Shown piece after piece: positions 33,230-56,518 of a DNA stretch of 64,000 nt. Each line of letters starts with the position of its first letter. The first letter of the stretch is position 1. The translations under genes were made by a program, and so were the position numbers. Location of the stretch: the NCBI RefSeq assembly GCF_019802125.1, contig NZ_JAHVHT010000006.1:124001-188000 (forward strand). The letters are read 5' to 3'. The DNA comes from Tateyamaria omphalii (GTDB lineage Bacteria; Pseudomonadota; Alphaproteobacteria; Rhodobacterales; Rhodobacteraceae). The notes beneath the pieces were generated by a model. The model was given only the letters and a program-made list of their open reading frames with translations, searched no databases and was not told the origin of the DNA.

Positions 33230-33287
33230 CTTTGCTGATCCGCTTCACCGTTTGCCGCCACGCGGACCGGTTCGAATTCCCTGTTTC

Positions 33288-33482
33288 AAAAAAATCCCGG
33301 GGGAGTCGCCAAAGGCGACGGGGGCTGGCCCCCAAAACCATGTCGTCGCGCAGCGTCCTTCGGATCACCGCACGTTGCGTTAAGCAGCACCCAACCGCCC
33401 GATGGGGGTGCACAGGGGGTGTACGCATGGTGCACGGGGGGTGACACCCTGTTTTTGGCGTCAATCTCCATGAAAACAAGGT
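33288..33482 (-). repeat. 195-bp dispersed 3'-UTR repeat, copy 1
   Basis: Read on the minus strand it starts 27 nt after the stop of the glutamine-synthetase-like gene. A 148-bp core (33482 down to 33335) matches copy 2 (54972-55119) at 140 of 148 positions without gaps. It then has hairpin GGGGGC-CA-GCCCCC, hairpin GTCGCC-TTT-GGCGAC, and TCCCCCGGG followed by seven T. The core holds three 11-bp units (33403-33435). The ATG-led 61-codon frame in it is probably not a gene: the differences between copies inside it all change amino acids and no ribosome site precedes it. Confidence 0.85.
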
Positions 33483-54971: not shown

Positions 54972-55164
54972 ACCTTGTTTTCATGGAGATTGACGCCAAA
55001 ATGAGGGTGTCACCCCCCGTGCACCATCCGTACACCCCCTGTGCACCCCCATCGGGCGGTGGCGGGTTGGTTAACGCAACGTGCGGTGATCCGAAGGACG
55101 CTGCGCGACGACATGGTTTGGGGGGCTCTGCCCCCGCCGCTGTGCGGCTCCCCCGTCGTATTTT
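54972..55164 (+). repeat. 193-bp dispersed 3'-UTR repeat, copy 2
   Basis: It begins 25 nt after the stop of the CRTAC1 gene, in the same direction. The core is 54972-55119; hairpin GGGGGC-TCT-GCCCCC is at 55121-55135, hairpin GCCGC-TGT-GCGGC at 55136-55148, then TCCCCCGTCG and ATTTT. Three 11-bp units are at 55019-55051. Compared with copy 1 the second hairpin differs on both arms but still pairs. It fills most of the 267-bp convergent gap; no gene is supported here. Confidence 0.85.
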
Positions 55165-55213
55165 CAGTCAGAAGAAGAGAGTATCCGTTGGCTTTGCTGC
55201 GGCTCGCAGGGCG

Positions 55214-56518
55214 CTATTGATCCACTGGCAAGCCGCTGGGCACAGCGGGTGGCACGCCCAACGCACCCCGGATGCTTTGCGGGTCCGTGAGGGCATTGAG
55301 GAAGGCGAGGAGATCGTAGACCTCGGCATCACTAAGCGCGATCGGGGCGAGGTCGTTGGCGGCGGCGATGGCGTCCATCTCGGCCGCATCTGTCAGCACA
55401 CGCATGTCGTCGGCGTCAAAGCCCGGCATGACGGCCTGGGTGATGTCGTAGGTGCGCAGGCTCGCCACCGGATCGAGGTGGTGGCGGACCACACCTTCCA
55501 GCGTCGCGTAGGCACCGCTGTGGCCATAGGGAGCGGTCTGCGCCACGTTACGCAAGGGCGGTGTGCGGAAGGCGTAGGCATCGTCAGGATCGCCTGTCAC
55601 CCGCATCCGGCCCGTGTCCTGCGCATGGCTTTCGAACCGCGCGGCCTTGCCCGGTCCGATCTGGGGCATGGCGATGGCGTGGAAGGCGTGATCTGTCTGG
55701 AAACGCCCCGAATGGCAGGTGGCGCATTGCGCCTTGCCGTGGAACAGGTCCATCCCGCGCATGGCGGCGGGCTCCATTTCGGTCCCATTGCGCAGATAGA
55801 GGTCGAAGGGGCTGGCCACGCCGCGCCATTCGAAGTCGAGGAATGTGGCGAGCGCATCGGAGATATGGGTGAAGTGGATCGGCTCGGAGCCGATGATGTC
55901 GTCGAACCGCGCGCGGTATTCCGGGATCGCCTCGATCCGTTGTGACAGCCGGTCCCACGCTCCATCGGGTCCGGTGATCAGGCCCTGACGGACCGCCTGG
56001 CTGATCTCGTTTTCGCTGTAGTGTCCGGCCATCTCATCCGCCGACAGAACCGGGAACATGGACTGCGCCGAAAGGGCGGAGGCGAAGCCCATTTCCATCT
56101 CGGACCCCAGTGGCGTGCGGATACCAGAGGGGCGGGTCGCGTCCTCTTCCAGCCGACCATCATGGAAGAACACGGTGAATTCCGTGGCCCCGAGGTTGAA
56201 GAGCGGCGGCGCGTTGCGGGGGATGCGCTGTTCGGGCAAGTTTTCGGGATCGGCCATGCGATCCGGGCCAAGGCCCGTGGCCCCATCTCCCAGACCCAGC
56301 GACACACCGTCGCCGGTGGCGAATTTCGGGTGGTGGCAGGTGGCGCAGCTGACCGTTTTGGACCCGGACAGGATCGGGTCGTAGAACAGGAGCCGCCCCA
56401 GCTCGACTTGGGCACTGTCGACCGCGGGAAACACCGGCTCTTCGAACGGCAGATCGGCGGCCCAGAGCGGGGCCGCCATCAGGGCAAAGGCAACAGCCTT
56501 AGACGAAACGCGAGACAT
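55214..56518 (-). CDS. Di-heme cytochrome c peroxidase family protein (MauG/CCP-like)
   Basis: A 434-residue periplasmic protein with a signal peptide (to about WAA, residue 21) and two haem c sites, C58-A-T-C61-H62 and C265-A-T-C268-H269. [15 protein letters not shown] before the first haem and [18 protein letters not shown] near 330 are conserved in bacterial CCP/MauG. It would reduce peroxide or oxidise a partner. The ATG at 56518 lies inside the end of xylA (20-nt overlap), so it is co-transcribed with xylBA although its role in xylose use is not obvious. Confidence 0.9.

Follow-up and report, generated by a model that had tools for sequence, protein, structure and literature searches.

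A phased box array, probably read by an orphan BrnA-like ribbon-helix-helix protein, joined to a separate terminator-like hairpin module in Tateyamaria omphalii

Two joined modules in convergent gaps

The window (the whole 64,000-nucleotide stretch of Tateyamaria omphalii DNA analysed here) carries two copies of a sequence of ~195 bp, at 33288..33482 on the minus strand and 54972..55164 on the plus strand, and the best ungapped 148-bp alignment of the two is identical at 140/148 positions. Copy 1 begins 27 nt past the stop codon of a gene for a Gln-synt_C protein and faces a short-chain dehydrogenase gene, and copy 2 begins 25 nt past the stop of a gene for an FG-GAP/UnbV_ASPIC (CRTAC1-like) protein and faces a di-haem peroxidase gene, both copies lying in convergent gaps. 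These places, distances and settings agree with a first-pass annotation that had been made from the sequence alone. Genes were called here and below with a home-made codon-score caller and were not taken from an annotation. A mechanical open reading frame of 320 aa (window 54983-55945, plus strand), which has its ATG within copy 2 and runs antiparallel to the peroxidase gene, is almost certainly not a gene.

A genome-wide search with the copy, as the annotation had suggested, gave 39 matches at E<=0.001 in the 4.49-Mb genome from which the window comes (own genome, G000), so the likeness is not due to chance. Most of the matches span part of the head (about query positions 1-117) or part of the tail (about 115-195) and few span both, head and tail being also found separately. 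Each window copy is two joined modules, namely module A, a box array in a ~117-bp head, and module B, a hairpin pair followed by a T-tract.

Similar heads to that of copy 1 (33366..33482, minus strand; query 1-117) were found at other loci of the own genome and of the genus. The pattern search placed within it an array of three exact boxes, GTGCACC-ATGC-GTACACC-CCCT-GTGCACC, with an 11-bp step (33407..33435, minus strand), together with an in-phase degenerate fourth box, TGTCACC (33440..33446, minus strand), which matches the pattern with three mismatches; a TTAAC box is visible in the sequence 23 bp past the array (33379..33383, minus strand). The head of copy 2 (54972..55088, plus strand) likewise has own-genome and genus matches, as well as an orthologous copy in genome G007, and was found by the same search to hold the array GTGCACC-ATCC-GTACACC-CCCT-GTGCACC (55019..55047, plus strand) and an in-phase degenerate TGTCACC box (55008..55014, plus strand), with a GTTAAC box following the array at 22 bp (55070..55075, plus strand). 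Module B occupies 33288..33333 (minus strand) in copy 1 and 55121..55164 (plus strand) in copy 2, as judged from tail alignment and covariation. In each case it consists of hairpin 1, hairpin 2 and a T-tract, and the arms of hairpin 2 are those reported earlier, GTCGCC/GGCGAC in copy 1 and GCCGC/GCGGC in copy 2.

When 21 copies of module B were aligned, hairpin 1 was invariant, whereas hairpin 2 showed changes on both sides in 5/5 of its pairs with 96.8% of the cells pairing, a covariation score that was reached by 0/500 shuffles. The nearest upstream gene lay on the same strand for 18 of 22 tail copies, which therefore follow its stop; L021, a tail copy hardly different from L020, is part of this placement count and absent from the alignment. 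Like intrinsic terminators, module B has a GC-rich hairpin and then a T-tract and stands after stops, but it differs from them in its invariant hairpin 1, its covarying hairpin 2 and a likeness among copies that extends past the T-tract. This further sequence (GAAACAGGGAA, GTCAGAAGAAG; for example window 33270-33290, minus strand) would be odd for a plain terminator. Judged by these features, module B is a terminator-like RNA element that moves separately from the array.

Placement and conservation of the box arrays

The core of module A is GTRCACC-N4-GTRCACC-N4-GTRCACC. With up to three mismatches this triplet gave 33+24 matches in the own genome, compared with 0+2 for the reversed pattern, and at <=1 mismatch 24 separate arrays were obtained. 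In a search with no preset spacing, 45 of the 51 box pairs lying within 0-28 bp of each other were separated by exactly 4 bp. All 24 own arrays lie outside called genes, near gene starts as well as gene ends and in either orientation. A location outside genes was also seen for 107/108 array loci in other genomes, a set in which at least three places are entered twice and four loci belong to records of Cupriavidus, Planctomyces, Streptomyces and Bradyrhizobium. Among 115 distinct arrays for which both neighbouring genes were available, 66 gaps were tandem, 26 divergent and 23 convergent (two array loci with irregular spacing, L012 and L017, being omitted from the context counts). These proportions are close to those of all gaps of at least 50 bp (217 tandem, 89 divergent and 62 convergent). 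Within tandem gaps 29 arrays were sense and 37 antisense.

The annotation had proposed that the whole repeat functions as RNA. This holds for module B only, that is for the last ~45 nt, where hairpin 2 covaries and the tail follows stops; it is not supported for the core, whose arrays occur in all gap types in about ordinary proportions and in both orientations, and for which the box spacing and the protein and motif results given below favour a DNA operator. Similarly, the gene-end placement claimed for the repeat is seen for the tail and for the long heads (15/26 compared head copies begin 16-46 nt past a stop in the sense direction, many of them being mutual orthologues) and not for the GTRCACC arrays. 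Copies upstream of genes, which would speak against the RNA proposal, were found for the core and not for the tail. It is unlikely that all ~195 bp act as RNA, whether as a small RNA derived from the 3' UTR or as a module for processing or termination, with a transcript that may begin near the TTAAC box and end at module B. The covariation of module B, its position after stops, the preference of heads for the sense side of gene ends and the joining of head and tail in the two window copies as well as in L248, the orthologue of copy 2, would suit such an RNA; arrays before starts, in divergent gaps and in either orientation, the exact 11-bp step and the link to a DNA-binding protein family described below would not, and Rfam gave no match for the window at gathering scores, nor for five loci at E<=1.

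The place and orientation of arrays are kept in orthologous gaps while the flanks diverge, for example before the chorismate mutase gene in Tateyamaria, Leisingera and Paracoccus. Linkers differ among arrays, while boxes and spacing are kept. Within the genus, long heads too are found again in orthologous gaps. For the own heads L001, L005 and L007 no orthologue was present among the head copies compared. Heads are 77-95% identical over up to ~139 bp, both within and between genus genomes, which indicates that whole heads have been copied. Such copying would be expected of a REP-like or other mobile repeat spreading through intergenic regions, akin to the non-autonomous element considered in the annotation; this is nevertheless highly improbable, because many arrays hold their place and orientation at orthologous gaps across species and genera and because it is the boxes and their spacing, not the linkers, that are retained. 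A polar chromosome mark (KOPS-like) was also considered and rejected, since by eye the 26 matches on contig C1 of G002 alternate between strands and do not form two blocks.

Several genus members without strict arrays retain decayed boxes before the MTAP gene, as judged by eye. More widely, GTRCACC triplets (<=1 mismatch) occurred in 16 of 121 sampled genomes including the own genome, with 0 in the reversed controls, and the looser exact GTRYAC triplet in 25/345 family genomes (24/344 genera), compared with 9/345 for its reversed control. The reversed control gave 1-15 matches in G038, G264, G407 and six other genomes, which may represent another phased motif. Genes adjacent to arrays often resemble genes of translation or growth (rpsB, prfC, lepA-like, serS-like, secE-like and ribosomal protein genes), with identities assigned partly by Pfam and partly by eye.

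The candidate reader and its box code

A candidate for the protein that reads the arrays is encoded at G000:C1:915286-915657, with an array 87 bp upstream. It is a BrnA-like (PF14384), putative ribbon-helix-helix (RHH) protein, scoring 47.1 bits against BrnA_antitoxin with a cut-off of 26.1, and 6/6 relatives (set A2) also matched PF14384. Orthologues of the gene in Nioella, Leisingera and Roseovarius have an upstream array in the same orientation each time; across these genera and Tateyamaria a gene for a protein of 111-141 aa adjoins arrays, with the array upstream and in the same orientation in 7/7 cases. The AlphaFold model of the protein, made from a 6-sequence alignment, had a pLDDT of 46.4, a quality too low to bear out the RHH fold, and a sequence search of solved structures returned no related chain, only one chance-level match (E 0.89).

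The protein belongs to the same sequence family as the BrnA antitoxins of BrnT/BrnA modules, and an array before its own gene fits autoregulation, which is usual for antitoxins. It differs from such modules in that no BrnT toxin was present among 10 neighbouring proteins scanned (from 9 of 30 RHH loci), in that most of the 30 loci have a divergently oriented gene next upstream, and in having dozens of predicted genomic sites.

A profile built from five RHH-like proteins adjoining arrays matched in 108/345 genomes at a threshold of 1e-6, with a single match at E<=1e-6 in the own genome. Matches were present in 19/25 array-bearing genomes compared with 89/320 others (Fisher 2e-6), and 10 of the 12 best matches were from array-bearing genomes, a ranking that is partly circular because the profile proteins had been chosen as array neighbours; the circularity does not extend to the upstream-region, residue-box, tree or genome-wide motif tests that follow. 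Six of the 25 array-bearing genomes (G069, G206, G214, G296, G315 and G368) had no profile match at 1e-6. Phased [AG]T[AG]CA boxes were found upstream of the RHH gene in 17 of the 18 array-bearing genomes read, the exception being G137. In G009, which belongs to the genus but has hardly any arrays, the sole profile match was an RHH-like stretch interrupted by two in-frame stops (L491:1481-1690 = G009:C25:53181-53384), a state that fits loss of the RHH protein with decay of the arrays. Unlike the own copy, this stretch is not beside the release-factor-3 gene.

Upstream regions were then compared for 70 RHH genes from other Rhodobacteraceae, made up of the 30 best profile matches and 40 taken by hand from further down the list, one per genome and with several skipped. 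A shift of 11 bp was the single best repeat shift for 48/70 and not for the other 22/70, and at least 18/26 identities at shift 11 were found in 40/70 of the regions compared with 1/246 control windows. Genomes without GTRYAC triplets had other boxes at this position, such as ATGCACA, GTMTGG, GTCTTYYT, GTATGAC and GTCGGG. The predicted DNA-reading strand of the own protein is K-T-R-V-T-I-R. At its third residue, the 32 genes that have RTRCA arrays encode R and the 10 that have GTNKGG arrays encode K, with 0 crossed; two of the 70 genes had GTCTT arrays, both with N two places past the third strand residue, and 26 were unclassed. On a tree built without the strand columns, residue and motif each change six times, and the independent pairs agreed on the residue-box match in 5/5 cases, a number for which a sign test cannot go below p 0.06. 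At the level of correlation, the predicted strand residue and the box change together.

On the premise that the upstream array displays the code of the protein, the box read upstream of an RHH gene was expected throughout that genome and not in others, and was sought across cognate and non-cognate genomes; the figures count matches rather than arrays, those of the array at the RHH gene included. The predicted motifs were dispersed in 11/13 genomes (weakly in one), compared with 0-2 matches in non-cognate genomes. GTMTGG gave 53 matches in G351, 51 in G369 and 19 in G258, with 0-2 in six non-cognate genomes, and the prediction failed in G028 (0 matches) and G071 (4 matches). GTCTTYYT was matched 33 times in G144 and 5 times in G188, where only two arrays exist besides that at the RHH gene, and 0 times in seven other genomes. 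ATGCACA was found in all 6 predicted genomes, with 8 to 114 matches, and 0 times in eight others, the reversed control being 0 in all 14. Reversed GTMTGG was matched 40 times in G369, 21 in G351, 17 in G138 and 8 in G151, and 0-4 times elsewhere; the forward and reversed words overlap each other in G351 and G369, and in G138 and G151, where the reversed control is unexplained, we rely on the non-cognate genomes. In the sets retrieved, arrays lay outside genes in 38/39 cases in G369, 17/20 in G351 and 15/16 in G144. Genes adjacent to arrays were common across motif classes no more than control genes (8/140 compared with 5/127).

Proposed binding model and related systems

Taking these results together, we consider it likely (probability about 0.8, judged from sequence) that each copy consists of a DNA operator, module A, most likely bound by dimers of the orphan BrnA-like RHH protein, and a separate terminator-like RNA module, module B. 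Consecutive boxes, one turn apart, would each be read by a dimer from the same face of the helix, the dimers binding cooperatively in rows of 3-5, and the protein would control its own gene by negative feedback through the same type of array. At arrays elsewhere, a role in blocking transcription locally or in organising the chromosome would fit better than classical activation, because the arrays show no preferred orientation. For convergent gaps, such as those of both window copies, it can be speculated that module B terminates the transcript and that the array, once bound, serves as an obstacle to transcription or as a chromosome mark, a suggestion that we regard as doubtful.

RHH proteins acting on tandem boxes are already known: MetJ, Arc and CopG are repressors that bind tandem operators, in which short boxes in a row are read by a strand and bound cooperatively. 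The arrays described here likewise have short boxes in a row, with strand reading and cooperative binding as predicted properties. They differ in their 11-bp step, in lying between genes at many places, next to unrelated genes and also at gene ends, and in that the box switches between genera.

In architecture the arrays also resemble the sites of OmpR/PhoB-type regulators, Pho/PhoP boxes being 7-bp direct repeats with a 4-bp spacer (PMC4832192), as in the 45/51 box pairs noted above, and CenR sites (TGA-N8-TGA) sharing the 11-bp step (PMC9275681). It is nonetheless quite improbable that a different protein, for example an OmpR/PhoB-family response regulator, reads the arrays with the RHH gene merely as one target, as the box changes track an RHH strand residue. 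Pho/PhoP and CenR belong to another protein family and bind other sequences, the Rhodobacter sphaeroides CenR motif being different from the array, and CenR sites are located at promoters. The TAACTGA repeats of Beggiatoaceae (MacGregor 2015, PMC4679880) are like the arrays in forming many short direct-repeat sets that are largely intergenic, patchy and with no known binder; they differ in that these heptamers mostly point to a start codon, with a proposed post-transcriptional action, and in that no protein is linked to them there by co-variation.

Beyond the RHH assignment for the window copies, we lean towards a wider reading, in which a widespread, autoregulated RHH protein acts on dozens of intergenic arrays per genome in Rhodobacteraceae and its genome-wide site set has undergone about six or more rewritings, every one of them accompanied by a change of one strand residue (R/K, with N two places on as a third code). 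If this is true, it would represent a natural, repeated experiment in which a global regulator switches language together with all of its sites, with a readable residue-to-box code, and a protein group known for antitoxins would include a DNA-binding regulator of global reach, or a nucleoid protein, in a bacterial family that is large and of ecological importance. It would bear on the question of how specificity can change without loss of function in a regulator that has dozens of sites; the switches seen here are repeated and go with a single residue. In the literature searched, to which subscription papers mostly did not belong, neither the array nor its binder nor BrnA in Rhodobacteraceae was described, and within it an orphan BrnA-like RHH protein that has a switching code and dozens of arrays between genes would appear to be new.

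Some arrays are, in addition, accompanied by a second box, which in many arrays of the own genome, G369 and G144 stands at a constant distance of 22, 33 or 23 bp, respectively. A TTAAC/GTTAA box occurs within 90 bp downstream of 17/24 own arrays, compared with 8 on the upstream side, and 10 of the 17 are at 20-23 bp. No excess of this box was found for 102 other GTRCACC arrays (25 downstream, 21 upstream) or for the 20 arrays of G351 (4 downstream, 4 upstream). The box lies 23 bp past the array in 8/16 arrays of G144 (loci L362-L389), and exactly 33 bp past it in 16/38 arrays of G369 (loci L391-L429). Most arrays of G369 continue into a conserved sequence, TTTGATACATACGCGCG, which contains an inverted box. 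By their sequence, some arrays are directional, and arrays with such added boxes form a putative composite, directional element.
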